Below are positions 4,469-60,529 of a DNA stretch of 64,000 bases, piece after piece. Both the position numbers and the translations under genes were made by a program. The DNA comes from Ceratorhiza oryzae-sativae. Taxonomy: Eukaryota > Basidiomycota > Agaricomycetes > Cantharellales > Ceratobasidiaceae. The notes beneath the pieces were generated by a model. The model saw only the letters and a program-made list of their open reading frames with translations. It was not told where the DNA came from and did no database searches. Location: positions 1 to 64,000 of the forward strand of contig JARWMV010000055.1 of NCBI GenBank assembly GCA_030998015.1, given 5' to 3'. Position 1 is the first letter of the stretch. Each line of letters opens with the position of its first letter.

Positions 4469-5580
4469 ACGTCGACGTGGTTGATATGTGGGATCTTGAG
4501 GGAGGTTTTGAAGACGACGATCAGTTTGATGGTGAAGAGTAAATAGCGAAGATCCTCTAATGTGACTAGGGTGACCACGAGCAAAATCACGTGCCATATG
4601 TGACCTCATCACGAATACCCTTGAGTAACGAGTCGACTTGGTGCAAAGTTTGCCGTACAGTAACAAGTCAAGAATGGCGCACTTAGGCTGTGACAAGAAA
4701 ATAAGTTAAGATGAGACCAATTTAACATAACTTTTCTGTAGTATGTCTTCACAAACTAGCTGGTATACCGAGAGTTCGACCCCACGCGGCCCAATGCTGT
4801 ATATGTTAGGGCCATCTTTCAAATGATAAACAAGGCTTCAAAGCTTTCAGGCATCACATAGCAAATTCTACATACAACATGGCGGGGAAGTATGCCATCG
4901 AGCATAAGCGCCGGTTCCCAAATTCTTAAGTTCATCTCCAAGGCTCTCCCGAACTCTCTCGGGCGAAGTCTATAGGTGAGTTGTACCAGCCGTCGTCGAG
5001 AGTTCTCCTGTGCCCTGACTCTTTACCTCTCTTGTCGATTTCTTGATTCATCCGCTGATTGCCTCGTGGTCTTGATCAATGAGACATCACCCTGGAATGG
5101 CACAGGATAACTCTCGACGATGGATGGTCACGAGCCTAGTTTTATTGCACTATCGGTTTTTGCAGAGGCATGTCCCTCCGACTGATCTTCCTTCAAGAAC
5201 CGATCTTTTTCGACCCGATCTTCCGAGCTCTACCGTTGTTTGAGCAACGAATTTAGTTTTGGGCTGTCACATGGGTGCCTGACCCTGGCTGCTCTGCCCG
5301 TGAGTCGATGATTCTGGTCTCTTGTCGATTGTTATCTGCGCCCTCGCGAACTACGCATTCCAGATCTAGACGACACCATATGTCTGACGAAATGCATCCC
5401 GACTACGGTCCCGACAGCGCAGGGCTGGTTTGTAAGCCTGGACGAGACTTGTTCCTCGGACTTCTGGTTGCATGGCGTTGACTCTCTCACCACTCGCCTA
5501 CTGTATATGGGTTTGGGCCGAGCGTATACAACTCGATAGGAACTGCGAAGATATTCAGACTAAACCCGGGCTCTTATCTC
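4469..5580. other. Intergenic, no supported gene
   Basis: Only short frames without family resemblance are present. The stretch is CpG-containing and rich in ctcgtcgat/ctcttgtcgat-like words around 4,990-5,340. I see no repeat boundary or RNA gene. Confidence 0.5.
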
Positions 5581-41629: not shown

Positions 41630-42651
41630 AAAACTATATCAGCACTCAGGATCACAACCTTCATGTACATGAAGTTTGGGAGGCTGATAGCAGCCCAGGA
41701 CTTGAGATATAAAAATATTGAAAAATACTGGCTGGCTGAGAAGAGTGGGAGCTATAGGTAGGTGGTCAAGGGATATCCATATATGGTCACACTTTTGAGC
41801 AAAAAGGAAACAATATTGAACAGGCTAGAAACACCCCAGGAGGCTTTCTGAATATTGGGTAAAATATGCAAAACAGTAGTTTAATACTGAGAGCAGCTTA
41901 TATTCAATTTTGAAGAATTGAATAACAGATGGTTGTCTCTGCAGAAATTGAGCAGTAATTGTTGGATGAAATTCAGCCCCTTCTGAGTAGCCATGACAGC
42001 CCAGGAAAATTATGGTCAGCCATGGCAATCTGAATCATATTTTGAGTATTTATGCTGTATTTATCACTTTGCTCCTCAAGGAGTTAGCTGTAGTGGGTAA
42101 CTGGACTTATCCAGAATTTTACTAAGTCAAGTGGCTGACTTTTTGAGGAGCAAAGTGATAAATACAGCATAAATACTCAAAATATGATTCAGATTGCCAT
42201 GGCTGACCATAATTTTCCTGGGCTGTCATGGCTACTCAGAAGGGGCTGAATTTCATCCAACAATTACTGCTCAATTTCTGCAGAGACAACCATCTGTTAT
42301 TCAATTCTTCAAAATTGAATATAAGCTGCTCTCAGTATTAAACTACTGTTTTGCATATTTTACCCAATATTCAGAAAGCCTCCTGGGGTGTTTCTAGCCT
42401 GTTCAATATTGTTTCCTTTTTGCTCAAAAGTGTGACCATATATGGATATCCCTTGACCACCTACCTATAGCTCCCACTCTTCTCAGCCAGCCAGTATTTT
42501 TCAATATTTTTATATCTCAAGTCCTGGGCTGCTATCAGCCTCCCAAACTTCATGTACATGAAGGTTGTGATCCTGAGTGCTGATATAGTTTTAAGGCTGG
42601 TTAGTCTAATGGGTAGAGCACCCATTCCCTCTTGCTGATGTAAGCTCATCA

Positions 42652-43207
42652 TGTTATGACCTGTCAAATGGACATAACAGAATAACTGAATATTTTTACG
42701 GATTTATGGCATTTTTCCTAAGTGGAACAAGCCATAAAAAAGGTCACATGACCTTGGCGCTTAACCAGCGCTTACAGTGGTTACCCTGAACTTGCTCCAG
42801 CATTTCTCTCCATTGTTACTTGGAGCAAGGAGCAAGTTGTCACGTGATCTCGGCACTTACAGCAGGATCATGTAACCTCAGTGCTTACCCCTTGGACCTC
42901 ATGCGGCTCTATAAGATTCGGAGCCACACAAACTTAAGACAAACAATTACCTAACCCATAGTACTGTATATAACCTGCACCTACTGCAGATTGTGCTTAG
43001 ATAATACATCTGCAGCCACCACAGCCACAGGTATATATAAGAAGGATAAAGCAAGACTGGACGCCTCAGCTTGCTTTATCTTGTCAACCACCATAGACCA
43101 TAGCAAACACTGTAACTAGAACACTCAATACATACCGCATAGCACCAAAACATCAACGCAGCCACTACTTAAGTGCTTTGCAAGGAAGCATCCAGAGGGT
43201 CACGACA
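42652..43207 (+). repeat. 5' LTR of the Rep-carrying gypsy
   Basis: 556 bp, starts TGTTATGACC and ends GGGTCACGACA. The same length as 59,101-59,656. Most differences between the two are CpG-type transitions. Confidence 0.92.
43031..43041 (+). promoter_or_regulatory. TATA box of the LTR promoter
   Basis: GTATATATAAG lies about 30 bp before the predicted RNA start at about 43,066-43,068, where the self-priming sequence begins. Confidence 0.6.
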
Positions 43208-43209
43208 TT

Positions 43210-43221
43210 ATAAAGCAAGCT
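43210..43221 (+). promoter_or_regulatory. Self-priming primer-binding site
   Basis: ATAAAGCAAGCT, two bases after the 5' LTR, is the exact complement of AGCTTGCTTTAT at 43,068-43,079, which should be the 5' end of the element RNA. This is the Tf1/sushi mode, in which the transcript's own first bases prime minus-strand DNA instead of a tRNA. Confidence 0.65.
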
Positions 43222-43327
43222 CTTAACGTAACTAGTGGTGAACATAAGTATACTACACAGATAATAAGGGCTGAGTACACAAGAAACCAGCTAACTCCTG
43301 TGATACATAAGAGAACACAAAGAAACT

Positions 43328-45224
43328 ATGTCACAGAGACCACAAACTCAATCTCAAAGCAGAGTGGCAAATAGTAGACCACAATCATCCAAACCTGTTA
43401 CTCCCCCAGAGGCTGAAGGTAACCCAGACAAGACCCTCCAAGGAATGCTGGGGGGGTTGCCACAAAACCCATGACCAGTGGCTCAACCTAACCCCACTTG
43501 GGCCCCCATCCTGGGAGGGCAAATAGGGGGAATACCGCTCTGCAGCTCTCAACTGCCAATTCACCTGATAAATCCAGACCCAGAAGATATCTCAAATCCA
43601 GAGAGGGATGAGGTAGAAGATATGACCCGAGCCATATACGAACAAGGCACGGCCTTGGCGGAAGAGGCAAGGACACAACCCCAGCCAGGTCCTGGAACTA
43701 TAACCACTGCCAACCCTATTCACACCATTGCCACAACCATCAGGGCGGGGCTCAAGGAACTTAGAGACAATAACCATAGGGAACTAGAAAAGGCAATCAC
43801 AGGTATAAATCAGTGTCAAATATCACTAACCCAGCAAGAAGGAAACGTGGACTGGATGGTAAGGTTGATGGAAACATCCAACAAAAATGTCCTCTATGTG
43901 GCAAAGAACCAGGACGACCTAAAAGCAGAAATGGGGAACCTGATAAAAGAATTAAAGGACATCTCCATGGAAATAAACTGGGTACTGGGAATGCAAGAGC
44001 AAAAGCTTGAAAGCTTAGAGAAGAAAACTGAAAACACAGGGGAGATCCTGACCACACTAGAACAATGGGTAACTGATCTAGGAAATGAGCTCCAGAAAAC
44101 AACTGAAGCAGGAAGGCCAAGGGAAAGGACAGAAGAGACCAGGGGAAGAACTAGGGTGGTCATAGGAAGCCCCTCACAATCCCCCTCAGCCTCCCTGGTA
44201 CGAACACCCTTTCTGGGAAGAACCTTCCAGGCTGAGTCCACAATAAGACCCCGAACAGAACCTCCATCCCAAGCAAACCAACCTACCCTTGCTGCAAACC
44301 ACACTCCTAAGGAGGCGCGACTAGGGAGACCCAGCAAATTTAATGGGAAAAAGGGGAAGTAAGCAGAGAACTTCATAATCAGCATGGAACTTTTCTTTGC
44401 TGACTATGATGAATCAGCCTTTGATGACCGAAAAAAGATATCTGCTGTGTAATGAACATGGAGGATGGGAAGCAGCAAACTGGGCACAACCTTACCACCA
44501 AACTACTAGCAGGCAAACACAGGTATTCTTGCATCCTGGAAGGATTTCAGGAAGGGATTCCTGGATGCTTTTAACACCCAGTCATAAAGGAAAAGACCAT
44601 CCGGAAACTAAGGAAATTAACACAACCAAGAGTGCATTGGATTATGCTACCCAATTCCGATCCTGATCCAAGAGGTAGACTGGAACCAGGAAGCCCTCAA
44701 GGACCAATTCAGGGAAGGGTTAAAACCCAAGTACACAAGAGATCTTAAGGATTGAAGTACTGGCAAATGAGGCTGAAGGTCCATCATATACCTTAGATCA
44801 ATTAATCGACTTTGCCTGCAAAATGGATGACATGCAGTTTGCAAACCAGAAAATGAATGCAAGGACCAGCAACTCATCAAATTCAACCTGGGCACCAGCA
44901 AAATACAAACAAGGGGGGAACAAGCCTTTAGGGACCAGTGGCAAACAGGGGAATACCCAAACCAACAACATGGTAAGGATACCAAACAGTGAAAAGGACA
45001 GGCAAGGAAAGAAGGACTCTGTATCAAATGCAGGTAAATCAGGGCATGTCCTGAAGGAGTGCCAGGCCAGTGGACCTACAACAAAGCTAAGATACAAGGG
45101 AAGGCCAGCAGACAAGTTGAAAGAAAGCAGCTCTGAGTCGAAAACTAATTGGTCCTACCACTTCCATGTTGGAGGACCCCAATATAACCCCTACTGCAGA
45201 TGTATGCTACCTCAAGAAGTCTAG
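43328..45224 (+). pseudogene. Gag of the Rep-carrying gypsy, decayed
   Basis: Starts with ATG at 43,328 (MSQRPQTQSQSR). A TGA at 43,472 interrupts the frame, which stays open to 44,362 with a long coiled-coil-like region (residues about 110-250, MEINWVLGMQEQKLESLEKK). After 44,362 stops and shifts fragment it. The last piece, 44,823-45,224, keeps a degraded zinc knuckle (SNAGKSGHVLKEC, first Cys pair altered). Gag would package the RNA. Sequence is distinct from the gag of the nested family. Confidence 0.75.
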
Positions 45225-46664
45225 TAATCAATCAATAATATACACTACAGTAGAGGGAATCATGGAACCAGCAAAGACACTGATTGACTCAGGATCTTCA
45301 ACCAACTTCATCGATAAGGCCTATTCAAGGGAAAAGGGGATTCCAACTACTCCCCTCAAACACAAGAAATCAATTGGGCCATTGATGGAAATGAAATCAA
45401 GGTGCCATAGAAGAAAGGGCAGAACTAAACATTGAAGTGGAAGGGAAGACACTAAAATGCTCCCTTTATGTAATGACCCTAGGTGACACAGACATAGTCC
45501 TAGGGAAAGAATGGCTTGAAGAAGCAGAACCTATCATAGATTGGAAAGACCTTACCATCTCATACCCAGACAAAATCAAGGCAAGGGCAGCAAGTGAAAG
45601 CCTACAAATCCCAGAAGAATTTAGGGATTTTGAAGACCTATTTGGGGAAGAAGGTTTCCAAGAACTTCCACCTCACCAAGGTAACCTAGACTTCAAAATG
45701 GACCTGATCAGGGAGCGGAGCTGCCAAAGCCTGCAAAGAGGTACAGTATGTCGCCAGCAGAAACAAAGGCGCTCAGGGAGTACCTAGAGGAGGAACTAAG
45801 AAACAGAAAATAAGGCCCAGCCAGTCAGTTGTAGCTGCACCCTGTTTCTATGTGAAAAAAACAGATGGAGGGCTTAGGTTGGTAGTCGACTACTGTAAGA
45901 TGAATGACATCACCAAGCCAGACAGGTTTCCACTTCCAATTCAAATAGAATTGATTGAGAGACTGAAGGACGCAACCATCTATTCAAAAATGGATGTTCA
46001 ATGGGGGTTCAACAATACCAGGGTAAAAGAGGGAGATGAATGGAAAACAGCTTTCAGGACAGGAGAAGGCCAGTTTGAATGCTTGGTCATGCCATTCAGA
46101 GTAAAAGAAGGACCAAGAACCTTTACAAGGTTCATGATGGAAAAGTTCTGTGACATAATAGATGATTATGTGGTAATCTACATGGACAATGTACTAGTGT
46201 TTTCCAGAAACAGTGAAGAACACATACAACATGTCAGGGAAGTGTTAAGAAGAATGAGGGAAAACCACCTCTTCCTCAAACCACACAAGTGTCAGTTCTT
46301 TGTGAAGGAGGTAAGCTTCATTGAATTGTCATATCCCCAGAAGGGATATTGATGGAAAAGGAAAAGGTAAAGGCAGGACTAGAATGGCCAGAACCTAACA
46401 CAGTAAAAGAAGTCCAAGCATTCCTAGGCTTTGTGGGGTTCTATAGAAGGTGGATAGAGAGGTTTAGCACCTTAGCCAAACCCCTCACAGATCTCACTCA
46501 AAAGGATGTCAAATTCCTGTGGGAAAGAAAACAACAAGAAGCATTTGAAGCTCTTAAAGAAGCAGTAGCAAGAGAACCGTCCTTATCCACCCAAACCCAA
46601 ACAGCCATACATACTGGAAACAGACGCCTCAGGAGTGGCCATGGGGGCAGTACTAAGCCAAAAG
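45225..46664 (+). pseudogene. Protease and RT of the Rep-carrying gypsy (5' part of pol)
   Basis: Protease active site LIDSGSSTNFID around 45,275-45,320, with a shift near 45,430, then DIVLGKEWL. RT follows with VVDYCKMNDI, KMDVQWGFNNTRV and YMDN in place of YMDD (45,852-46,352). A further frame change precedes the thumb (GFVGFYRRWIERFSTLAKPL). The RNase H start ETDASGVAMGA is split by the nested gypsy at 46,665. The last bases AAAAG are the target duplication. Confidence 0.85.
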
Positions 46665-47040
46665 TGTCACGAACTGACACACATATATCCACTCTATAAT
46701 ATTTTCTCAATTTACTACATTTTATGAGATCATCTTCAAAACATACTTGCCTTTTATGGTATATCTGTGTCATGTGACTCATGGAATGTTCTGGACCAGT
46801 AACTGAGATGTATTTCAACTCCAATGTGAAATTCCACAGTTCCACAGTCGCTTCTACTGCTTCTATCTCTTATCTGTCGTGACTCACTGTACAGACTTGT
46901 TTGTTATGATGTGGCTCGTACTATGTATATAAACCAGGTCAAGTTCGCAGAGGACTCCTCAAGAACTTGACCTCTCGTCGAATACAAGTTCTTTTATTTT
47001 CTTACTATTTTCCTCGTTGCCTGACTTGTCGTCGTCGACA
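46665..47040 (+). repeat. 5' LTR of the nested gypsy
   Basis: 376 bp, TGTCACGAACTGACAC to GTCGTCGTCGACA. A TATA box TATATAAA at 46,926-46,933 lies about 30 bp before TCAAGAACTTGACCT (46,959-46,973), the predicted RNA 5' end. Confidence 0.95.
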
Positions 47041-47042
47041 TC

Positions 47043-47057
47043 AGGTCAAGTTCTTGA
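47043..47057 (+). promoter_or_regulatory. Self-priming primer-binding site of the nested gypsy
   Basis: AGGTCAAGTTCTTGA, two bases after the LTR, is a perfect 15-base complement of 46,959-46,973 inside the LTR, just downstream of the TATA box. This indicates self-priming as in Tf1/sushi elements. Confidence 0.7.
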
Positions 47058-47362
47058 CAATTGTAAGTCTCAGTGTCGTCTGGGATACGTCTGGAACGCC
47101 GTTGGCGTCATCTTGAGATAACTCCTCATTGCCTTCCCCAAATCCTACTCCACCTATCCACAGCCACGAGATATTGTTGCCCTATATGCGCCTCTGTGAA
47201 ACCTTGCATAGCCAGGTCCCTCACACGTCGTAACAAGCTTCAGTTCTCTAATCTCTTTCGTCAACAAGAGGTGGGGTCGCTCATTGCCCTTAAGTAGCTG
47301 AGCAACGGAGGTCACCTTCCTATTCCAATAGACTCAGGAAAGGGTCTATTTTTCCTTTTATC

Positions 47363-48300
47363 TTGCTCTTGCTCGAGTACGTCTCTGACGGAACGCACAG
47401 CCCTCAAGTGGCACAACCTTTTACAGAAGATCAGTGCTGCCATCTGTGTGGGTGGTTCAGACACCTATCGATCCACTGCTTCACCCTCAACTTGGTCGAA
47501 AGTATCCTTGAAGAAGCTGGGCACATCGATTTCAACCGAGTAGTAATCATCAAAGTCTGCCCCCAGAGAGTTGGACGCGCCCAACAAGCCTTTGTCACTG
47601 AGCCAGGTGCCCCTGAGTGCAAAATCTGCCGTCGGGCAAACGGAGCCACCTTCCCAGCGCGCTGCCCCTATTGTCCTAAGAAGGACAAATTCCTTTATTA
47701 CTACACCATCCCCCGCAACCAGCTATAAGCTGGAGAACCTTGGCCAACAGCTTCTTTGTCACCTGCTAAATACTATCGAAAGCTTCCAAGACAGGTACCG
47801 TTATTACCAGAATAAGTACAAAGAAACCTGTGAAAAACTTCACGAAGCCGAGGCCCATTGCACATACTTAACTGAGCGTTTGTGTGAACACCAGGAGGAC
47901 TACCTATCCCTCCTCCAAGACCATCTCAGACTAGAAGCTATAGCCTGAGAAACAATTGAACCCCACAAGTACGCCTTCCCCGTCTTCTCAACGCCGTCAG
48001 ACCTCCCTCACCCCACCTTTCTAAGTGGCACGGGCTCGCCAATTCAGGAAGAAGCACCCCTTCCGGCAGCCCAAATCAATCCTCCCCAAGGAAGAACTCC
48101 TTCGGGATCCAACTAAACTAAAGAGGGTGGAGTGCCCATATCGTTGCCAAGACACCAAAAGTTGGGACTTGGACGATACTTGGTTGAGATTTGCAGGAAT
48201 AGGGGACTTCAAAATTTATAGACTCGTGAGGGGAACAGAAATCTTTTATTATCAAAACAATTCCAATTCCCTGTACTTCCTTACCGTCTCCGTCGCCTTT
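47363..48300 (+). CDS. Accessory region between LTR and gag (zinc motif and coiled coil)
   Basis: Three overlapping or consecutive plus-strand frames. 47,363-47,728 is Cys-rich (CCHLCGWFRHLSIHC, then CKICRRANGATFPARCPYC, a CxxC...CxxC zinc pattern). 47,571-47,948 is coiled-coil-like (NTIESFQDRYRYYQNKYKET). 48,025 to about 48,300 holds VECPYRCQDTKSWDLDDTW. The same three segments occur in the same order in the minus-strand copy, so the region is an element gene rather than leader. It is probably joined by splicing or frameshifting that I could not resolve. Function unknown; not part of standard gypsy gag-pol. Confidence 0.5.
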
Positions 48301-48326
48301 AAAAATCTACTCGAGTCCTTTCTGAA

Positions 48327-49715
48327 ATGGCATCACCAACCCCTGCCCCTGCTTGGGCAAATATGTCCAATGGAGATAAGGTCATCTATATGCTTCAATC
48401 AATGGACGAACTGCAAGAGCGAACCAATAATCTCCAAAACAATATCGGGGACGTCGAACACAATAATAAGACCTACACAGACTCACTCGAGGCCAAACTT
48501 ACCACTAATCAGACAAAAATAGATGCGGACGTGGCTGGATTAGCCACCAATGTCAACAATCTAGTGGGGATGTTAGCCATTCTCCAGACCACTATCACGC
48601 GTATTGAAGCGCAAATCAACACTTCCACAGGAGGCTCAGGCGCTGCTCAAGCACTAGCTCCCTCCAGTGCAGCCCAACCACAACCAACAGCACCCGCTCC
48701 CTCTGGTGGGTCGACTGCAAAGGTTAAGATGGCCGCCCCTCAGAAGTTTGATGGCACAAAACGAGAAGACGCCATCTCATTCAGAATTGCATGTGCCCAA
48801 TACATTAATACAAACATGAGTGGGCACTCGGCTGATCAGGTGGTTGCCTTCATCACCTCCTATCTTGAAGGGTCAGCAGCTGAATGGGTCAACTTGTATG
48901 AAGAATTCGAAATTTTAAATCCTGGAACTGCGATTCCCTGGCTTCATGATGCCAATCTGTTCTGGCAAGAATTCACTACCCGTTATGGGGACCTGAACCG
49001 CACTGAAAATAACCGCAACAAGTGGCAGAAATTGAAACAATCCAAGACAGTTCAGGATTACCTCACCCTATTCAACCTATATTCCACAGGTCTTAACTAC
49101 AACAATGCCGCCATGCGTGATCAGTTCTATGATGGTCTATTGACAGACGTAACAGATAGCATGGTGGCCCAAAACTATGACCCTCGCACCAAAACTTTTG
49201 CCCAACTCACTCAGCGAGCCCTGGAAATTGACCACCACCTCATCTCGTTTGGTAGCAAACGAACGTCTCATGGGAGTAACAAGCCCAGCAGCAATGCCTC
49301 GTCCAGTAGGCCGACCAATAACCCCCAAAGCACCCCCCAAAAGGAGAAATTCAAAAGTGGGGAATGGATATATAAGATTAAGGATGGGAGAGCCGTAAAA
49401 GGTCAGATTGTGGCCATTGGGCCCAATGTGAAGGGTTTCACAGTTCCAACTGTCTGCTACGATGGCAGCAATACCAATGTACAAGAATCCTTCAAGGACA
49501 TAAAGAAGGATAACCATCTGCTGGCGGCCCCAAAGGCAAAGGATCCAGACGCAATGGATCTGGATAGCGCAGGAAAAGGAAAGGGGACGAACACCTGCTA
49601 TAACTGTGGAGGACAGGGTCATATTGCAGCCAAATGCCCCTCAGCTAAGATGTCAGGATACGAGGCAGTGGTTGAGGATGTAGAAACAACCAACAATGAG
49701 TCGGTAAAAGAATGA
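48327..49715 (+). CDS. gag: Gag, nested gypsy (intact, 462 aa)
   Basis: Uninterrupted from ATG 48,327 (MASPTPAPAWANMSNGDKV). Residues about 15-90 are coiled-coil-like with many Asn/Gln (TNNLQNNIGDVEHNN). A Pro/Ser/Ala linker follows (about 105-130), then the capsid core (SAAEWVNLYEEFE, WLHDANLFWQEFTTRYGD). A CCHC zinc knuckle CYNCGGQGHIAAKC sits at about 424-437. Gag forms the particle and binds the element RNA. The stop codon overlaps the pol start (ATGA, 49,712-49,715), suggesting that pol is translated by termination-reinitiation or from a separate start. Confidence 0.92.
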   Translation: MASPTPAPAWANMSNGDKVIYMLQSMDELQERTNNLQNNIGDVEHNNKTYTDSLEAKLTTNQTKIDADVAGLATNVNNLVGMLAILQTTITRIEAQINTSTGGSGAAQALAPSSAAQPQPTAPAPSGGSTAKVKMAAPQKFDGTKREDAISFRIACAQYINTNMSGHSADQVVAFITSYLEGSAAEWVNLYEEFEILNPGTAIPWLHDANLFWQEFTTRYGDLNRTENNRNKWQKLKQSKTVQDYLTLFNLYSTGLNYNNAAMRDQFYDGLLTDVTDSMVAQNYDPRTKTFAQLTQRALEIDHHLISFGSKRTSHGSNKPSSNASSSRPTNNPQSTPQKEKFKSGEWIYKIKDGRAVKGQIVAIGPNVKGFTVPTVCYDGSNTNVQESFKDIKKDNHLLAAPKAKDPDAMDLDSAGKGKGTNTCYNCGGQGHIAAKCPSAKMSGYEAVVEDVETTNNESVKE

Positions 49716-52700
49716 GCTCAAACTGTGCCAGGGGGGCGGTCTTGGGCGCTATGTTACAAAATGCGCATAACGAAAATAAAAATATGGAAATGGAATGTAT
49801 GTCGTTAGGAAACCAATCACAATTACAGTTTTTCTTTCATGCATTCCCTCTGCGCATAACCCCTGAACGCAAGTCTGCATATAACATGAAAAAATTCAAT
49901 GGATGGGCCATGATCGATTCAGGGGCCACATCAGTATTTATACATGAAAACTTGGTTAAACAATACCGTATTCCTACCGTCGCCCTAAAAACACCCAAGA
50001 AACTGAGGGTAATTGATGGAAGGGAGATAGACTCTGGGTCTGTGACCCATTACTGCACCTTTGAGTTGTGCATTCAAGAGCACCGAGAAATCCTCAGTGC
50101 CTATGTTGTGAACGTTGGCAAAAATGATTTAGTCCTGGGCATGTCATGGCTCAAATTCCATAACCCTGATATTGATTGGGACGGGAAAGACATGAAGTTC
50201 AACTCACCAATATGCCTGAAGCACTGCATCACAAAACCCCTGCATGTGCAAGCAAATGAACCTAAGGAGCTTCAGTTGGACTCCTTAGACTCCCTCCCAA
50301 CAAAATATAAAGAATTCCAGAAAATATTCGCTGAAGAAGACAACGTCCAACCATTACCACCCCATAGGAAGTGGGATATGGAAATAGATTTAAAACCAGA
50401 TGCCAAGCCAAGGCATGGTCCCATATATAGCGTGGGTGTCAAGGAAGATGCAGAATTGCGCAAAACCCTGGACCGCCAACTGAAAGCAGGGCATATCAGA
50501 CCCTCAAGGTCACCAATGGCATCCCCAGTCATATTTGTCAAAAAGAAGAATGGGAAGTTGCGCATGTGCATCAACTACTGGCAATTAAATGAAATGACAG
50601 TCTCTAATGTGTACCCACTCCCACGCATCAATGATATTGTGGAGACTCTGCATGGGGCAAAGATATTCACCAAGTTTGATCTAAAGTGGGGCTTCAACCT
50701 CATATGAATTCGGGAAGGGGACGAATGGAAAGCAGCTTTTAAGACCAAATATGGGCTGTACGAGCCCTTAGTCATGCAATTTGGTCAAAAGAACGCACCA
50801 GGAACCTTCATGGCCATGATCCGGGAAGAGTTCCAAGACATCGAGGGCATTTATGTGGTAATCTATATGGATGACATATTAGTATTCTCCAAAAACCAGG
50901 AAGAACACAATGAACATGTCAAGGAAGTCTTACATCGCCTTCAAAAAGCTGGCCTATATTGCACTCTGGAAAAATGTGTTTTCGATGTCACTGAAGTCGA
51001 TTACCTGGGAATAGTAGTGACTCCCCAGGGAATTAAAGTAGACCCAGCCAAGGTTGAAAAGGCTGTTGAATGGCCAACCCCTACCAACCCAACCGAAGTC
51101 CTGGAAGGGTTGGGGTTTGCAAATTGGTTGAGGCACTTCATAAAAGACTTTTCGAAAATTACAAGATGTCTTTATGAACTTGTCAAGAAGGATGTAAAAT
51201 GGGAATGGACAGAAGAAAGGGATCAAGCATGGAATCTGCTGAAGCAAAAATTAAAAGAAGCCCCCCTCCTAATCCAGCCAGAGCCCAACAAACCATTCAT
51301 TTTGGAAACCGACACCTCAGGCTATGCCACAGGCGCTGTATTATTGCAATATGGGGAGGACGGAATGCTCCACCCAATTTCCTATTACTCCAAGGCAATG
51401 GTCCCAGCAGAAAGGAATTATGATATCTACAACAAAGAAATGCTGGCAATCATAAAGGCCCTCAAACACTGGCGTCATTTGCTAGAAGGGGCTGAACACC
51501 CAGTAAACATTGTTTGTGACCACAAGAATTTGTAGTATTGGAAGACAAATCGGCCACTGAACAGTCAGGTCACACGGTGGCATGAGTTCTTGTCCAGGTT
51601 CGAATTCAAGATTCTATATATTGAAGGGGCGAAGAATGGCCAGGCAGACATACTCTCTAGGCTGTCAAGACATATCCCTAAAGAGGGGGGTGAGAGCCAA
51701 GCTCTGCTTGCGCAAAACCAATTTTTGGAGCTGAAATCACTATGCCTGCAAGCAATCACGCCAGACAATGACCTAGAACAACTCATTAGGGATGCTATCC
51801 TGGGGGACGAACACCTATCAAAAGTCCTAAAAGCCCTAGATGACAATGAGAAGGTCAAAGATTGGGAATGGGACGAAGGACTCTTACGACACAAAGGCAG
51901 AATCTACATCCCAAATAACAAAGAACTTCGCAAACTGGTCATTGAAAGCCATCACGATAACCCAGCAGCAGGACACCCAGGACAGTTCAGAACATATGAA
52001 CTGTTAAATCGCAAATACACGTGGTTATCAATGAAAAAATCAGTCAACGAATATGTCACACACTGCGAGTCATGCATCAGGAACAAGCACAGCAACCAAG
52101 TTCCCCCAGGGCTCTTAAACCCAATACCTGCACCAGAAAAACCTTGGGAGGAAATTACTTATGATCTGATCACCAGGCTACCCCTGTCAGAGGGATTTGA
52201 TGCCATATTTACAGTTGTCGATCGCCTGACAAAAATGGTCCACTTTATTCCATGTCAATCGGAAGCCAGTGCTATGGATTGCGCCAACCTGTTCCTAACA
52301 TATGTATGGAAACTCCATGGGTTACCACGGAAAACAATCTCAGACTGCGGCCCCAACTTCGCATCCAAATTCTTAAGGCACTTATACAAACGACTGGATA
52401 TAAAACCCTCCTATTCCACAGCATACCACCCTCAGACAGATGGCCAGTCCGAACGGGCCAACCAAGTAGTGGAAGGGTACATCAGACACTATGTATCAGA
52501 CAGACAAGATGACTGGGTCTCGCTCCTACCATTAGCTGAATTTGCCTACAATAATGGTGTCAACGCCTCAACTGGCAAATCACCATTCTTTGCAAACTAC
52601 GGTTTCCACCCAAGGCTAGCAGTCGGGGACAGGGAGGAACCAGAACTCCCTTTAGTGGACAACCATGCAGAATGGCTCCAAAAGGGCCATGACGAACTTA

Positions 52701-53242
52701 AGGCAGCCCTGGAAATAGCAAACCAGAGGATCAAGGAATACTATGACCAGAAGCATTGGACCCCTGAAGCTATTAAGGTTGGAGACAAAGTCTGGCTTGA
52801 TACCAAAAACATACAGACACAGCAGGCCTCCAGGAAACTGGCCCACAAAAGAGTTGGACCATTCAAGGTGGTAGCACAACATGGCACACATGCCTACAAA
52901 CTGGACCTACCGATAACCATGAAAATACACCCAGTGTTTCACGTCTCACTCCTGACCAAATATAAAGACGACCCCTATGGCCGTCAGGTTCCCCCACCAC
53001 CACCTGTGGTAACTCCTGAAGGGGAAGAAGAATTTGAAGTGGAACAGATCATAAAGTCATGATACAACAAAAGATCTAACATCTTTGAATACTATGTCAA
53101 GTGGCTCTGCTACGACGAGCGACAATGGTTAACCTATTATGACCTGGTGAACGTGCCAGAACTCATCGCCAACTATGTCAAGTCGCACCCAAAGGCACCT
53201 CAGGACCCCCGTGCCTTGAAGGGGGGAAGTGTCACAAACTGA
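49712..53242 (+). pseudogene. pol: Pol, nested gypsy (one frame, three in-frame stops)
   Basis: Protease with DSGATSVF (D at residue 69). RT with KKKNGKLRMCIN and the canonical YMDD (about 50,867). RNase H (LETDTSGYATGAVL, YDIYNKEMLAIIKAL). Integrase with an HHCC finger (ending HCESCIRN) and DDE positions at TYDLITRLP, TISDCGPNF and DGQSERANQ. A chromodomain closes the frame (EFEVEQIIKS, then YYVKWLCYDERQW). Stops at 50,705-50,707 (TGA), 51,533-51,535 (TAG) and 53,060-53,062 (TGA) lie in an otherwise continuous frame. At least two fit CGA-to-TGA change. The final codons run into the 3' LTR. Confidence 0.93.
53217..53229 (+). promoter_or_regulatory. Polypurine tract of the nested gypsy
   Basis: GAAGGGGGGAAG immediately before the 3' LTR; the primer site for plus-strand DNA. 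Confidence 0.75.
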
Positions 53243-53605
53243 CACGCATATATACACTCTATAATATTTTCTCAATTTACTACAGTTTATGAGATCATCT
53301 TCAAAACATACTTGCCTTTTATGGTATATCTGTGTCATGTGACTCATGGAATGTTCCAGACCAGTAACCAAGATGTATTTCAACTCCAATGTGAAATTCC
53401 GCAGTTCCACAGTCGCTTCTACTGCTTCTATCTCTTATCTGTTGTGACTCACTGTACGGACTTGTTTGTTATGATGTGGCTCGTACTATGTATATAAACC
53501 AGGTCAAGTTCGCAGAGGACTCCTCAAGAACTTGACCTCTCATCGAATACAAGTTCTTTTATTTTCTTACTATTTTCCTCGTTGCCTGACTTGTTGTCGT
53601 TGACA
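53230..53605 (+). repeat. 3' LTR of the nested gypsy
   Basis: 376 bp, TGTCACAAACTGACAC to GTTGTCGTTGACA, followed by AAAAG. Differs from the 5' LTR mainly by CpG/TpG/CpA changes. Confidence 0.95.
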
Positions 53606-53610
53606 AAAAG

Positions 53611-55518
53611 GGTGATGACAACCAATTGCATCCAATTGCCTTCCTATTGAAGAGCTTCACCCCACCAGAGAAAAATTATGACACCTACAACAAGGAGTTG
53701 CTTGCAATCATTAGGTCCTTAGAGCACTGGAGGCTATACCCAGAAGGGACAGAAGAACCTATTGTGATATACACTGACCATGGGAACCTCCAGTACTGGC
53801 AAAATGCCCAGATGTGGAATAGAAGGCATGCCAGATGGTATCTCACTCTGGCACCCTTCAATTTTCAGATTGTGTATAGACCAGGGAAACTCTCACAGAA
53901 GCCAGATGCCCTTTCCAGAAGGAGCAACCATGGGGACAACCCTATGGAACCACAGATCATGATTCCAGAAGAAAGGTTCATAGGTTTCAAGGCAGAGGTA
54001 CAGGGGAATTTCTGGGAGGAGCTTAAAGAAGCTCAGGAAGAAGACAAATCTATCAGATCCTTAAGGCTGAGCATGGCAAATAAAGAACAACTACCGCCCT
54101 CAGTACAGAAGGAATTTAGATGGTATGAAATGAAGGAGGGCCTATTCAGGTATGACAATAGGCTCTACATCCCAGACGACAAGGACTTGAGGTTGAGTCT
54201 CCTTGAGGAGTGCCATGATGCCCCTGTGGCAGGTCATCAGGGACAAGCCTGAACACTAGAATTACTATCAAGTGATTACTACTGGCCAGGAATGAAGGCC
54301 CAAGTAAACCAATACATGGAATCTTGTGAAATGTGTCAAAGAAGCAAAGGACATAAACAAGGCACTCCCCTGAAGCCCTTACCAATCCCATGGAAACCAT
54401 GGGCAGATGTCACATATGATTTCATCATCAAATTACCTGTCTCAAAGGGGTACAACAGCATCTTGACAGTTGTAGATTGCTTCTCCCAGCAGGCCCATTT
54501 TGTACCATGTCTGGAGAGCACCAATGCAGAAGAACTGGCAGAAATATTCATAAAGGAGGTATGGAAACATCACAGGACCCCAGAAACCACTGTCTCAGAC
54601 CGAGGGCCAACCTTTAACAGCCAATTCCTAAAAGCCCTATACAAGGGAATTGGGACAAGGCCCAGATTCTCCACCACCTTCCATCTAGAAACAGATGGAC
54701 TGTCGGAAAGAACAAATCAATGGGTAGAAGGGTTCTTAAGAACCTTCTGCAATTATAGACAAGATGATTGTGTAAAATGGTTACCCATTGCCGAATTCTG
54801 CCATAACAACCACGTAAATGCTACAATGGGACAAACCCCATTTGAAACAGTATATGGAAAAAACCCAAGATGGGTTGTCCAAGAGGGAGAAGAACCGTCT
54901 GAGGCACCTGCTGCAGACAACATGCGTAATCAAATGGAAAAGGTATGGGATGAGGCAAGAGCCTCAATGGAATTACACCAACAAATGGAAAAGAAAGGGA
55001 GGGAATTCAAGGTAGGAGACAAGGTTTGGCTGCTCCTAACAAACCTCTCGTCCAAGAGACCCTCCAAGAAATTGGACAACTGAAAAGGGGGCCCTTTTGA
55101 AATCACAGAAAAGATCTCATCCCATGCGTATCGCCTGGACCTACCTAAAACCATATGTGTACACAATGTATTCCATGTAAATCTCCTCTCACCATTCACA
55201 GAAGATAAAGACTTCCAAAGAAGGCAGGCCAAACCACCACCAATCATAACAGAAGAAGGAGAGGAGGAGTATGAGGTGGACCACATTGCAAATTATGAAT
55301 GGCAGAATGGCAAGCTGTTTTACCAAATCAGATGGAGGGGCTACGACCCAATAGAAGACACAATGGAACATGCCAGCAAGTTTGCTGACATGAAAGAGGT
55401 TCTAAATGACTTGCAAAGGTGCTTACCAGATGCACCAATGCCAGTCAAGACAAGTCAGCACTCAGGTGACTCAAAAGGCAGGCCAAAGAGAACCAAACGA
55501 GGACCTGGAAAGCTTTAA
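53611..55518 (+). pseudogene. RNase H, integrase and chromodomain of the Rep-carrying gypsy (3' part of pol)
   Basis: Continues the RNase H cut at 46,664 (LHPIAFLLKSF, YDTYNKELLAIIRSLEHW, IYTDHGNLQYW). Then an integrase zinc finger (HDAPVAGHQG, CEMCQRSKG), the catalytic core (TYDFIIKLP, TVSDRGPTF, DGLSERTNQ) and a chromodomain (EEYEVDHIANYEWQ, YQIRWRGYDPIEDTMEH). In-frame TGA stops at 54,250-54,252 and 55,081-55,083 interrupt one continuous frame. The 3' end is intact to the stop at 55,516-55,518. Confidence 0.9.
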
Positions 55519-55604
55519 AAAGAGCCATCCAGGATACCCAAGAAAGGCCAGAGCCCACTCTACCACCTCACTTGCACCACAATACACCTGCAAAACCCCA
55601 AAAC

Positions 55605-56426
55605 ATGCCTTTCATCACTCACCCAGTCGCACATCCCAACCATTACATGCCACTTGTTGAAAATCAGGTGGTCCCACTTTGGCGGCCACCCACCACTAGG
55701 CGGCCAGCACCCTACCCTGGCAGGGAAAATTGTCCTAAACTAGGGATGTACTGCTCCAGTGTGGAAGATGCCCAGAGGTATGCTGAGCAACTGTTGCCAG
55801 GGGCTAACCTAGTGTACATCCCAAAGAAGTTAAGGGATGAAAGGAACTGGATCAACAATGACAAGTACCTGGATCCCAGGTTAGGGGTCCTTAGATGGCA
55901 TGGAAGCTGGAAACCAACAACAAGAAACACCTTGCTAAGAACACCAATGTACGTCATTGACAATATTGTGGGACCAACAGTCAACGTGGTGGCCAAGGCA
56001 GCGAGACAACAGAGGAGGTCAGCAGGCCAAATGGCAGATGGGGGGGACTGGGAGGTGGAGCGCCAGGCCAAGGCATTGTTGGAAGAGTGGAAGTTGACAC
56101 TGGCCACACCATATGTGGGACTGCTTGAAGCAACTACCACTGATGAGATGTTTACTGCTATCAGGACAAAGCAGGCAAACATGAGCAACTTCCGAAATTG
56201 GGTGAAGGTGCACCCAAACAAAAACACCAATTACAACACAGATATGACAAGCCTTATGTCAAGCCTAGAATCACTGGTTGTGGCTGAGGAAGAAGCAAAG
56301 CCTGTGATAGAGGAACCCACCCTGGACCCAGCTGCAGAGGAAGCCAAACAGGCCTGGGACCAGTGGGAAAACGAGCTTGCCAAAGCTCTGGAGGAGGTGC
56401 CACTGTTGGAACCAGCCCCCATATGA
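55605..56426 (+). CDS. Accessory frame downstream of pol, 273 aa, unknown
   Basis: Open from ATG 55,605 (MPFITHPVAHPNHYMPLV) to the stop at 56,424-56,426, with no interruption although the neighbouring gag and pol are full of stops. The N terminus is Pro/Arg-rich (PPTTRRPAPYPGRENCPK). A central globular part includes EDAQRYAEQLLPGANLVYIP and LGVLRWHGSWKPTTRNTLL. The C-terminal third is acidic and Ala/Glu-rich (PTLDPAAEEAKQAWDQW). No transmembrane segment, so it is not an env gene. It occupies the position where some retroelements carry extra genes. Family not recognised. Confidence 0.5.
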   Translation: MPFITHPVAHPNHYMPLVENQVVPLWRPPTTRRPAPYPGRENCPKLGMYCSSVEDAQRYAEQLLPGANLVYIPKKLRDERNWINNDKYLDPRLGVLRWHGSWKPTTRNTLLRTPMYVIDNIVGPTVNVVAKAARQQRRSAGQMADGGDWEVERQAKALLEEWKLTLATPYVGLLEATTTDEMFTAIRTKQANMSNFRNWVKVHPNKNTNYNTDMTSLMSSLESLVVAEEEAKPVIEEPTLDPAAEEAKQAWDQWENELAKALEEVPLLEPAPI

Positions 56427-56479
56427 CCACAGTGCCTCTCACAAATTCTTTCTCAAATGTATAAGAGTTTTTATTTTTT

Positions 56480-57042
56480 TTACATATCAAACCTAATACA
56501 TTTTTGCTCTCTATTTACGTTTGCCCTGAGGGGCCAGGTATAGGGTTTCTTGCCCTTTTTATCCTTCTTATTTGTCTGAACAACTGACCAGGTAGTGGGC
56601 CACAGCAAAGGGGCCTCCCCCCCTGGGAAGTCGGCCATGTAGTTCTGGAAACACCCAGAACCAGATGCTGCAAAGGGTGAAGCCTCATCAAACAAGGGGG
56701 GAGAGCTCTCCTCAAAGAATTCAGCAAGAGTGGCATGGTGAGACCACTCCTCAAAGGACTTGTAGTCCTGATCAATGAGCGCCCAGACACACTCAAGGGT
56801 GGCCTCATGGGCCTGACCATCAAGGAGTATGTGCTCTTCTACAGAGCAAGTAAGTAACATGAGACCGACAAAGAAAAGGCACACATACCTGGCACCCCAT
56901 GGAAGAACCAGTCCCTGACACCTCCATAGAAGTCTTCAAGGGAGGTGTTGCACACAGCATTGCAGTAGGCACAGTACTCCCCCTCAGGGAGAGACCAGCA
57001 GGTGCAGTCAAGGGGATTGTAGTTAAGGGAAATAACGCGCAT
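56480..57042 (-). CDS. Minus-strand spliced gene inside the gypsy, 170 aa
   Basis: Exon 1 57,042-56,889 (MRVISLNYNPLDCTCWSLPE, Cys-rich with CTCW and CAYCNAVC). A 50-bp intron with GTATGT donor and CTGTAG acceptor follows, then exon 2 56,838-56,480, with phases matching. The C-terminal part is acidic then Lys-rich (NKKDKKGKKPYTWP). It lies head to head with the Rep-like gene, separated by about 460 bp. The divergent arrangement resembles the ambisense gene order of CRESS DNA viruses, but this protein is small, Cys-rich and not recognisable as a capsid. Function unknown. Confidence 0.5.
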
Positions 57043-57504
57043 AGTAAAGACGGGATGAGGAAGGGAAACAACAAAACCACAAACATTAAAAAATCACAGT
57101 GCAACATGATAACTTGAACAAACATCAAAACAAAGTCTGGTCAGGTGACACAAACCGACACGTGACCATCTGCCAGAAAACAAACAACAAAGCACAGGAA
57201 TCACATGACCTAGCCTAGTCACATGAATATACACTATCCCCTAACTACTGGAGGGGTCAGAGAGGGGGCACCGACTGAAGTGGAGGAGCAGAGGCCCTGA
57301 GCGTAGCAAGGAATAAGGCCAATGCAGGGGAACGCAGGAAGGGCACCCCTTGGAGATGCATCATAACCAGCACAAGCCTACATCAGGAAACCATGTGACC
57401 ACAACAACCAGAGAGGGTATATCTAGGGGACACCTTTGGGGGTAAAAGGGGCTATCATCTCATGCCCTCCCCACAAGACACATCTCCCTCTAAAAATACC
57501 AACA
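57043..57504. promoter_or_regulatory. Divergent intergenic region between the minus-strand gene and Rep-like gene
   Basis: Expected to hold two promoters. I looked for the stem-loop and nonanucleotide (TAATATTAC type) of a rolling-circle origin and found none. The only compact hairpin is CCCCT-aactactgg-AGGGG around 57,237-57,255, with a 9-base loop but no canonical nick site. Confidence 0.35.
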
Positions 57505-58791
57505 ATGCTAAGCGAAGATGGCTTGAATGTGGGAACACCCCAGCCAAACGAATCAAGTGCAGGGCAGAGGTTGGCATCACCATTGCTGGCGCCCTTGGAA
57601 TCAAGCCAAGCCCCCTCACCCACTTCTATGTGGCTTATGCTGACGGATTGCAGGTCCAAAGAGCTGACCAAAACCACACGGGCCCCCCAATTCCATGTCC
57701 AGACCAGGGCGGTGCTGCTGACCTGGTCAAAGCTACACAATCAGCCCTCAAGTGGGCTCACTGCCCGATACAAGGTATTCTGCTGCCACTGGCCCAATCA
57801 CTGGGCAACTTTAGCTGTGGTCAAACGGCACAACCCAGAGGAGCTGAACTACAACCCAACCCAGCCCCTGCATGTCCACACCCTTTCCATCAGTCAGGAA
57901 TGGAAGGGTGGGTGGAACACCCAGAACGCAGGGTTCTGGGACTTCGAGGGGCAACACCCCAACATACAGCCCAAAGACCTCAAGGACGGGCCAGGAGGCA
58001 ACCCAGCAAGGGACGCCTTCAACTATCTCTGGAAGGACGTTGGAGCTAATGGCGAGGAGATAGAGGATTTGATGGTGGGGGACCTGACCTTGGAAAGGTT
58101 AGAGGAGATCTTGGTGAAGGGAAAGGGCAGAAAACGGTCAAGGATGGAGGCAGACTTGGAGGATGGGACAGAGATTGTTGCCTTGGTGACGAAACAGGAG
58201 TACTACCAGGCGTTTAAGCACCTCCACCCCCTCCAGATGGTGACAACATGGAACTCAGTATGAGCATATGCTGAGTACACATACAAGGAAGACTGGGGTT
58301 GCATGCCTGCAATCCCTGTGGAGTTAGAGGTCCTGGAAGACTGGGAGCACATTGACCAAGCAGACAGATGGTTTGCTGAGGAGGTCGAGAAGAGGGGAAG
58401 AGGGGTGCACCATCACATCCTGGTGATAGAAGGAGAAACTGGAACAGGGAAAACAGCATATGCACGATCCAAGGGCTGCCACAGCCAGATGTGCAATGTG
58501 TGGAACATGGGCAACTTGTTGGAAGATGCTGACATTTGGATCCTGGACAACATGGTCCAGTCAAATGGGAAGTACTCGCTCAAGGCCCTGAGCCAGTATG
58601 AGGTGGACTTCACAGGCAGGTATGCACATGTGAAATTGATGAGGGTACGACTGACAGTTATTCTGGGAAATAGCTGGTTGGCAATCATGAAGTGTTGGTC
58701 GGACATAGAGGGGGAAGAAGGGGACTTATGGGTATCAAAAAATGTAGAATGGATGTACTCAGGAGGAAAACCATTCTTTGTATTCCCTTAG
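57505..58791 (+). pseudogene. CRESS DNA virus-like Rep (HUH nuclease + SF3 helicase), one in-frame stop
   Basis: Rolling-circle replication initiator-like protein in one frame, 428 codons, interrupted only by TGA at 58,261-58,263. Nuclease motifs: AVLLTWSKL (motif I position, 57,709-57,735), HVH (motif II metal ligands, 57,871-57,879) and YLWKD (motif III, catalytic Tyr at 58,024 and Lys three residues on). Helicase motifs: Walker A GETGTGKT (58,432-58,455), Walker B DIWILDN with DN for the usual DD/DE (58,531-58,551), and motif C VILGN (58,657-58,671). The spacing and the GKTAYARSKGCH context are closest to geminivirus/genomovirus Reps, by recollection of the families. It lies between the chromodomain and 3' LTR of the outer gypsy, in the same orientation. 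An overlapping frame (57,462-58,049) shadows its N-terminal half. Confidence 0.8.
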
Positions 58792-58908
58792 AATAATTTA
58801 CTTTATTGTGCAACTTCTGCTATGCCCATCCAAACAGTTGGGGCATTCTGAGAAGAAGCAGATGACCGCTCACCCCTAAATAACCTCCACAACTAAGAAA
58901 AGAAAAAC

Positions 58909-59035
58909 AATCTCATGTAACAAAGAGGTTAAGGGGCCTAGCCTGACTCAGCCTGACCTCATCGAATGATACTGAATCAGCTGAAAGGTCGTTGGTTCGA
59001 GTCCAGCACCCTTAACCTCCTTGGTGCATGAGATT
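58909..59035 (+). ncRNA. tRNA-like sequence in a 28-bp stem, before the 3' LTR
   Basis: 58,909-58,936 and 59,008-59,035 are inverted repeats (24 of 28 positions match), enclosing 71 bases. Inside is a perfect B-box word GGTTCGAGTCC (58,994-59,004) within a good T-arm (GTTGG-TTCGAGT-CCAGC), with an A-box-like TAGCCTGACTCAG at 58,939. GTTAAGG/CCTTAAC can form an acceptor stem. The D and anticodon arms are poor. A captured tRNA-derived Pol III unit or a structured RNA is more likely than a working tRNA gene. Confidence 0.45.
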
Positions 59036-59086
59036 CCTTTTGCATAAGGATCTAAACCATGTCTCAAGGTCCCCCAAGACATGTCC

Positions 59087-59100
59087 AAAGGGGGGGATAA
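59087..59100 (+). promoter_or_regulatory. Polypurine tract of the Rep-carrying gypsy
   Basis: AAAGGGGGGGATAA directly before the 3' LTR; plus-strand priming site. Confidence 0.75.
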
Positions 59101-59656
59101 TGTTATGACCTGTCAAACAGACATAACAGAATAACCAAATATTTTTACGGATTTATGGCATTTTTCCTAAGCAGAACAAGCCATAAACAAGGTCACGTGA
59201 CCTCAGTGCTTAACCAGCGCTTACAGTGGTTACCCTGAACTCACTCCAGCATTTCTCTCCATTGTTACTTGGAGTGAGGAGCGAGTTGTCACATGATCTC
59301 AGCACTTATGGCAGGATCACATAACCTCAGTGCTTACCCCTTGGACCTCATGCGGCTCTATAAGATTTGGAGCTGCACAAACTTAAGACAAACAATTACC
59401 TAACCCATAGTACTGTATATAACCTGCACCTACTGCAGATTGTGCTTAGATAATACATCCACAGCCACTGCAGCCACAGGCATATATAAGTAGGATAAAG
59501 CAAGACTGGACACCTCAGCTTGCTTTATCTTGTCAACCACCATAGACCATAGCAAACACTGTAACTAGAACACTCAATACATACCGCATAGCACCAAACC
59601 ATCAATGCAGCCACTACTTAAGTGCTTCACAAGGAAGCATCCAGAGGGTCACAACA
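59101..59656 (+). repeat. 3' LTR of the Rep-carrying gypsy
   Basis: 556 bp, TGTTATGACC to GGTCACAACA, followed by target duplication TATCA (59,657-59,661) and then the rest of the palindrome arm. Confidence 0.92.
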
Positions 59657-59943
59657 TATCAATCAGAGGTCACATGTTTGACTCCCCTCTTGTCCAACCT
59701 TTTTTGAGTTATTTTGAGCATGTTTATTGACTTTAGACATTTTTCCAAAATAAGGCACATCCCAATTTGGTGTGTGATTAGTTTGGGGTTTGGTGTGCTT
59801 GAAGGTGATCTGAAGTGATTTCCAGCAATGTGGGTGATTTGAGTGGTTTGAGTGATTTGGGTGATTTGAACTGATTTGAACTGATCTGCAGCTTGCCTGT
59901 GCTGATCTAAAGTGGTTTACATCCACAAAGGTAGATTTTCAAT

Positions 59944-60157
59944 GGCTGCTCAACAAGCAATGGTAGATTTGAAGCAATTCATAACTTGCATTGTTTGATT
60001 TGCAGTAGTTTGCACTGTTGTACATATGTCTTGTCCACCCAAAGCACTTACAAAGGTCCCGTAAGGCAAGTGGGTTATTGAAATCAGCTTGAAATGCTTA
60101 TGGAGCAAATTCCCACTTTCCTGATGTTTGGCACACCTGCTGTGAGTCATTCAATGC
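59944..60157. other. Flank between the palindrome and a solo LTR
   Basis: A minus-strand frame (59,950-60,150) continues in spirit with 60,542-60,799 across the LTR insertion. It may be a coding relic; not recognised. Confidence 0.25.
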
Positions 60158-60529
60158 TGTCATGAACTGACATGCATATATCCACTCTATAATATTTCCT
60201 CGATTTATTACATTTTATGAGATCATCTTCAAAACATACTTGCCTTTTATGGTATATCTGTGTCATGTGATTCAGGGGATGTTTCAGGCCAATAACTGAG
60301 ATGTATTTCAACTCCAATGTGAAATTCTGCAGTTCCACAGTCGCTTCTACTGCTTCTATCTCTTATCAGTTGTGACTCACTGTATGGACTTGTTTGTTAT
60401 GATGTGGCTTGTACTATGTATATAAACCAGGTCAAGTTTGCAGAGGACTCCTCAAGAACTTGACCTCTTGTCAAATACAAGTTCTTTCTTTTTACTATTT
60501 TCTTGTTGCCTGACTTGTTGTTGTCGACA
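60158..60529 (+). repeat. Solo LTR of the nested gypsy family
   Basis: 372 bp, TGTCATGAACTGACATGC to TTGTCGACA, homologous over its length to 46,665-47,040. Flanked by AATGC and AATGT (target duplication with one C/T change). No internal sequence remains. Confidence 0.85.

Follow-up and report, generated by a model that had tools for sequence, protein, structure and literature searches.

Here, we describe a Rep-like gene carried as a fixed part of a long terminal repeat (LTR) retrotransposon family in Ceratorhiza oryzae-sativae. The stretch under study (hereafter the window) comprises the initial 64 kb of contig C55 (JARWMV010000055.1), and the genome-wide searches reported below cover 48.8 Mb in 253 contigs. 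At 42652-59656 the window holds a Ty3/Gypsy chromodomain LTR retrotransposon with a cargo of approximately 3.6 kb between its chromodomain and its polypurine tract, consisting of a conserved open reading frame (ORF; orf318), an antisense gene, a conserved spacer and the Rep-like gene, the last two genes diverging from each other across the spacer. This module belongs to the transposing unit, occupies the same place in other copies and is common to a sister family (copy L041). We consider it very likely that the window element is one decayed member of a self-priming Ty3/Gypsy family that has many copies and a fixed three-gene Rep module; for the architecture taken by itself, that the module is fixed between chromodomain and polypurine tract is close to certain. 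An earlier note on the same DNA had proposed a Gypsy chromodomain element with 556-bp LTRs, carrying a Rep-like frame downstream of integrase and chromodomain, in the same orientation and upstream of the polypurine tract. The LTRs (42652-43207 and 59101-59656), the polypurine tract (59087-59096) and Pfam domains bear out this layout, to which the present analysis adds orf318, the spliced antisense gene, a nested Gypsy element and an ILDN Walker B motif. The features of the cargo are as follows.

55470..56423, + strand: orf318, conserved ORF without assigned function
56480..56838, - strand: antisense gene, exon 2, joined to exon 1 across a 50-bp GT-AG intron (56839-56888); whole product 170 aa
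56889..57042, - strand: antisense gene, exon 1, with a Cys-rich start and a conserved donor
57230..57376, no strand assigned: conserved non-coding spacer block, ~82% identical to L041
57462..57700, + strand: overlapping reading frame upstream of the Rep nuclease, the start of ORF 57399-58049, carrying protein-level constraint
57505..58788, + strand: Rep-like gene, with an in-frame TGA at 58261-58263 in the window copy
58925..59021, + strand: conserved tRNA-like hairpin between Rep and the polypurine tract
59087..59096, + strand: polypurine tract, AAAGGGGGGG, just before the 3' LTR

Recurrence of the module across the genome

With the C-terminal piece of Rep as query, at least 151 matches were found in the genome, the window's own included. 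Twenty copies, mainly from the top of the match list, were retrieved with their flanks, and every one adjoins the LTR of the element, L019 keeping only its last 110 bp. Matching pol lies upstream in 17/20 and was not within the retrieved stretch for L009, L012 and L028. Integrase matches were surveyed as well (n = 139, after 3 short rows of 142 were excluded): a co-oriented Rep lies 2.8-3.7 kb downstream in 89, at 3.7-15 kb in 23 and nearer in one, and 26 have none within 15 kb. Several of the 23 pairs are visibly split by insertions, and an opposite-orientation Rep within 5 kb accompanies a single match (1/139). That Rep should recur at this position in further copies had been named beforehand as the test of the earlier proposal, and the counts of 20/20 and 89/139 come out in its favor.

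Six of the 26 integrase matches without a nearby Rep were retrieved, comprising four close and two distant copies. All four close copies retain orf318 and antisense sequence, while their Rep is split (L029), truncated (L031, L034) or not found within the stretch (L030). The outcome expected of a one-off later insertion was not seen: the close copies, chosen because no listed Rep lay nearby, keep cargo sequence in 4/4 cases. No cargo is seen in the two distant copies, L033 (integrase identity 69%) and L032 (48-50%); L033 is interrupted by another LTR and so uninformative on this point.

Counted by eye, 32 of the 150 listed Rep rows have a stop-free frame that reaches at least 420 aa. A 340-aa frame, which opens at the same place in each case, was counted in 23 of the 150 listed rows (also by eye), and the three retrieved examples (L015, L017, L018) come from different subfamilies. 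Most Rep stops are TGA and the window LTR differences are mostly transitions, a pattern as after cytosine deamination.

The Rep-like protein and constraint on the cargo

The earlier note had read a 428-codon Rep frame. Its span (57505-58788) stands, but the frame is not open in the window, where the TGA divides it into 252 + 175 codons. The HUH nuclease motifs, Walker A and motif C of superfamily 3 (SF3) helicases that it had listed are all legible in the window copy (LLTW, HVH, YLWK, GETGTGKT, VILGN), and their positions and their conservation in aligned genomic sequences are given here.

57715..57726, + strand: HUH motif I (LLTW), in 19/19 aligned sequences
57871..57879, + strand: HUH motif II (HVH), HVH in 17/19 and HIH in 2/19
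58024..58035, + strand: motif III (YLWK), in 19/19
58432..58455, + strand: Walker A (GETGTGKT), exact in 12/19, its Lys in 19/19
58540..58551, + strand: Walker B, ILDN in 4/19 (window and three others), ILDD in 12, IFNN in 1, ILND in 1, gap in 1
58657..58671, + strand: SF3 motif C (VILGN), in 17/17 ungapped sequences (2/19 gapped)

Across the family the motifs follow one another in the order LLTW, H[VI]H, YLWK, GxTGTGKT, [IV]LDD, VILGN. The ordered set was present in 6/8 family proteins tested, the remaining two being fragments, and in 0/200,000 shuffles of one family member. A further stretch, HPNI, lies between motifs II and III and is kept in 19/19 genomic sequences; it resembles the geminivirus Rep sequence (GRS) region. 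In Helitrons the Rep is joined to a large Pif1-type helicase, unlike in the present family, whose proteins are ~430 aa long with a single P-loop. According to published motif definitions (uuTx, HUH, YxxK, Walker A, Walker B and motif C; PMC11052389, PMC6668415), Reps of Genomoviridae and Geminiviridae share the same motifs in the same order. They differ at motif I, where viral Reps have uuTYxQ and the window family has LLTWS, with Trp replacing Tyr. We have little doubt that the protein is a divergent geminivirus/genomovirus-type Rep. The named homologues all come from Ceratobasidium (AG-Ba, 394, 395, 414, 428, UAMH 11750), the others from unassigned metagenomes, and no relative was found among IMG/VR contigs (two scans) or prokaryote contigs. 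Searches of PHROGs and NCBIfam returned weak P-loop or chance matches only, and a plasmid match by tblastn was set aside as a chance resemblance to an integrase.

The beginning of the gene appears to be composite. Constraint at 57420-57700 lies in the frame of ORF 57399-58049, in which several Ceratobasidium gene models also start, whereas the Rep frame is constrained from ~57700. Since constraint switches frame near 57700, the start of the Rep gene is probably supplied by an upstream frame that overlaps it or is spliced to it.

The cargo proteins are under purifying selection. In pairwise counts over 18-23 sequences, pol had a ratio of nonsynonymous to synonymous substitution rates (dN/dS) of 0.24 and orf318 one of 0.28; the two parts of Rep gave 0.21 and 0.13, antisense exon 2 gave 0.33 and antisense exon 1, in its true frame, 0.26, compared with 0.64-1.24 in shifted frames and 0.65-0.92 in the non-coding stretch after Rep. 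In a sliding scan, run on 19 sequences after 5 copies were dropped for length, the antisense frame was stop-free at 56515-56845 and 56890-57070. The mirrored frame opposite the antisense gene gave ratios of 0.30-0.43 with 46-52 stops per window of the scan at 56515-56845, and that opposite Rep gave 0.24-0.37 with 4-56 stops; as the mirrored strand also scores low in every gene, the ratio by itself does not settle the coding strand, which the stops decide. In 18/18 readable sequences, the window among them, the antisense splice donor is intact. Synonymous divergence (dS) is 0.08 in pol and climbs to 0.40 at the end of Rep (0.30-0.40 within Rep). Together with the mixed LTRs of one element (C233, see below), this gradient suggests that 3' modules were exchanged between subfamilies.

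Among the remaining cargo, orf318 had no homologue at E <= 0.001 among 1296 candidates, and neither orf318 nor the two antisense exons, considered as possible capsid genes of a CRESS-type replicon, gave a Pfam match over cut-off or a PHROG, the homologue search having covered orf318 only. A tail of P0027 has some likeness to the antisense protein, but the match spans 16 residues at E 0.041 and was rejected as too weak. The spacer (57230-57376) contains several GGAG repeats and is a candidate promoter or origin. The tRNA-like hairpin, which includes a T-arm-like stretch, was present with few substitutions in 20/20 copies where the region could be located (23 searched), the window and L041 (~4785-4885); ARAGORN made no call on it and Rfam gave no match (56400-60000 searched).

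Origin of the module and competing explanations

The sister family, known from one read copy (L041), matches the window in its succession of chromodomain, orf318, antisense gene, Rep, tRNA-like hairpin, polypurine tract and LTR. Identity between L041 and the window family is 69% for integrase, 66-74% for Rep, 37% for orf318 and 31% for antisense exon 2, and three more copies match the L041 Rep at 92-93%. In L032, a more distant relative of conventional layout, the chromodomain is followed at once by a polypurine tract and by what looks like the start of an LTR, the retrieved stretch covering one LTR. With the module present in L041 and absent from L032, it was probably gained between the branching points of these two lineages. 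The Rep of L041 also contains a 61-bp GT-AG sense intron (3585-3645), where the window family is continuous, and five metagenome proteins (P0036, P0055, P0062, P0067, P0071) seem to read through the same intron. Exact loss of the sense intron with retention of the antisense donor is as expected from reverse transcription of spliced sense RNA, and we infer that the Rep intron was lost in this way.

In the reading that we prefer, an ancestral Gypsy element would have taken up a piece of DNA with a Rep, probably a replicon like those of the circular Rep-encoding single-stranded DNA (CRESS) type with its genes diverging, and the module would now spread by ordinary copy-and-paste. The cargo may be expressed from the conserved spacer, with Rep translated from a separate RNA, spliced or subgenomic. 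Rep could act as a nuclease/helicase on element DNA (e.g., extrachromosomal complementary DNA circles) or on host replication, to the benefit of the element; an enzymatic role on element DNA is possible, but we hold it only tentatively. We infer that a single unit combines rolling-circle functions with reverse transcription. A fuller chimera, in which reverse transcriptase (RT) would make the DNA and Rep would nick and amplify its extrachromosomal circles by rolling circle from an unrecognized origin in the spacer, raising copy number or allowing cell-to-cell spread as single-stranded DNA, seems distinctly unlikely at present.

Viral Reps are known to counter silencing or to alter host replication, and the Rep of this family might likewise target the host and not DNA circles, with the Cys-rich antisense protein helping. 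Transition-heavy mutation (34/37 window LTR differences), as under genome defence, and the lack of a detected origin in the cargo favor this idea, whereas the HUH-Tyr and ATPase motifs are both conserved, which points to catalysis on DNA; we judge this host-directed role rather unlikely. The module could also be a harmless passenger, captured by chance and of no benefit, with the signs of selection a relic of a past in a virus or DNA element. Stops in many copies, again the absence of an origin from our findings in the cargo, and movement of the element by reverse transcription regardless of Rep would all fit. However, Rep is constrained as strictly as pol within this genome (dN/dS 0.13-0.21 at dS 0.30-0.40), motifs I, II and III persist in 19/19 sequences, 32 of 150 listed rows remain stop-free over at least 420 aa, and the module also occurs in a sister family at 69% integrase identity, so that passive carriage strikes us as quite improbable. 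Repeated insertion of a separate DNA transposon or integrated CRESS replicon at one Gypsy site would account for the CRESS-like look of two divergent genes about a conserved spacer, and it has parallels in the Tuber geminivirus-like transposon with its terminal inverted repeats and in endogenous Reps of which some lie in host genes or transposons (PMC3198968). Against it, the junction with pol and LTR is single and shared among the retrieved copies wherever it is kept, the adjoining LTR is present in all 20 retrieved Rep copies and the order in the sister family is identical, which makes it very improbable. As for a one-off insertion or an assembly artefact in the window, only the decayed state of this copy points that way; with the identical arrangement on many contigs, its probability is negligible.

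Several results nevertheless weigh against the preferred reading. The earlier note had looked to profile searches to place the protein among Reps. Gemini_AL1_M, the Pfam central domain of geminivirus Rep, matched nearly full length and at the correct position in 10/38 members (6/24 in the first set), which speaks for the assignment, but its best score, 19.5 bits (E 0.001), is under the curated cut-off of 24. Gemini_AL1 matched 1/24 members (E 0.23), and no Pfam Rep model exceeded its cut-off for the family. Across the whole genome PF00799 had no match and PF08283 matched three unrelated places, none a Rep locus. Profile searches of the PDB retrieved no Rep, and AlphaFold models from 11-row and 47-row alignments had a mean predicted local distance difference test (pLDDT) of 33.8 and 38.0, too low to show a fold. 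Because profile placement is sub-threshold, the identity of Rep rests mainly on motif order and conservation. Many Rep copies carry stops. None of the 59 window matches to the CRESS nonanucleotide (TANTATTAC, up to one mismatch) falls inside 55519-59100, and a 5-bp stem in the spacer, tried as an origin hairpin, is broken in L041; a divergent origin may nonetheless reside in the cargo. Finally, intron loss is read from one sister copy and five metagenome proteins that seem to read through the same intron.

Rep-like genes and captured genes have precedents in other mobile elements. The nearest for a Rep in a retroelement is the Rep-bearing Terminons, giant Penelope-like retroelements of bdelloid rotifers with Rep among their accessory ORFs and proposed circular intermediates (PMC6431247). 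Both they and the window element are retroelements encoding a rolling-circle initiator among accessory ORFs. Terminons, in contrast, are Penelope-like, telomere-attaching and without endonuclease, whereas the window family is a chromodomain Gypsy with integrase, LTRs, target duplications and self-priming; its Gypsy pol and LTRs set it apart, and no Rfam (hammerhead) match was found at 56400-60000. Rep-like genes are multicopy in some other fungal genomes, with 42 in Tuber melanosporum and 5 in Laccaria (Liu et al. 2011, PMC3198968), as they are here. The Tuber geminivirus-like transposon, however, is a DNA element that has inverted repeats of 37 bp and ORFs for transposase (PMC3198968), and other endogenous fungal Reps are single insertions, while the window Rep is a fixed part of an LTR retrotransposon. 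Extra enzyme genes in LTR elements are known from the captured third ORFs of bdelloid Juno and Vesta (PMC5408684) and an orchid Gypsy with an N6-methyladenosine (m6A) demethylase domain (PMC9289625); no Rep is known to us among those captured functions, and the window family adds a spliced antisense gene. Full-text searches of an open-access library, subscription papers not being covered, listed no Rep in an LTR retrotransposon.

Retention of the Rep motifs during multiplication of an LTR retrotransposon means that reverse transcription and rolling-circle initiation can coexist in one transposing unit. The window family thereby offers a testable case for the origin of chimeric replicons, and it bears on what a Rep may do for a retroelement, a question left open for Terminons.

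The outer Gypsy element and the state of the window copy

The remaining features of the outer element are listed below.

42652..43207, + strand: 5' LTR, 556 bp, TGTTATGACC...GGTCACGACA
43208..46667, + strand: gag/protease/RT of the outer element, several broken frames in the window copy
43210..43221, + strand: primer-binding stretch of the self-priming type, 12 nt reverse-complementary to LTR position 417
46662..53605, + strand: nested second Gypsy element in pol, with its own LTRs from ~46662 and ~53227; limits approximate, outside the cargo
53590..55080, + strand: outer-element pol, RNase H and integrase (Pfam)
55084..55515, + strand: integrase C-terminus (SH3_Tf2-1) and chromodomain (Pfam)
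59101..59656, + strand: 3' LTR, 556 bp

The domain order protease-RT-RNase H-integrase, followed by a chromodomain, is that of Ty3/Gypsy chromodomain elements. RT_RNaseH, Integrase_H2C2, SH3_Tf2-1 and Chromo are above the Pfam cut-off; the 5' part gave RVP_2 at 20.6 bits and RVT_1 at 89.5 bits, the latter likewise above its cut-off, the integrase core (rve) of the window copy reached 27.3 bits, under the 32.6 cut-off, and gag was not recognized by Pfam. Because pol is interrupted by the nested Gypsy element, the window copy is unable to make pol and is dead. The LTR of the nested element has a third copy at 60155-60454.

The two LTRs of the window element are 93.3% identical, with transitions making up 34 of their 37 differences. 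Four further un-nested elements (C87, C16, C19, C233), whose 5' ends were retrieved, served for comparison of LTRs and target-site duplications. LTR pairs are 97.6% identical in C87 and 98.4% in C16, and both elements have perfect 5-bp duplications. The earlier note's target duplication holds only in part for the window, where the flanking pentamers catca/tatca agree at 4/5 bases. C19 (L039 and L027) has an internal deletion and a 14-bp stretch on both flanks instead of a 5-bp duplication. C233 (L038 and L023) has 5' and 3' LTRs from different subfamilies and no target duplication, which suggests template switching or recombination.

The self-priming stretch, a layout familiar from Tf1-like elements, is identical over its 12 nt in 4/5 elements compared, while the fifth has 9 nt; of 300 shuffled 40-mers, one attained 12 nt. 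The flanks of the window element (42590-42651 and 59657-59700), inspected by eye only, resemble a tRNA-like insertion target, with an A-box-like stretch on one side and a B-box-like stretch on the other.

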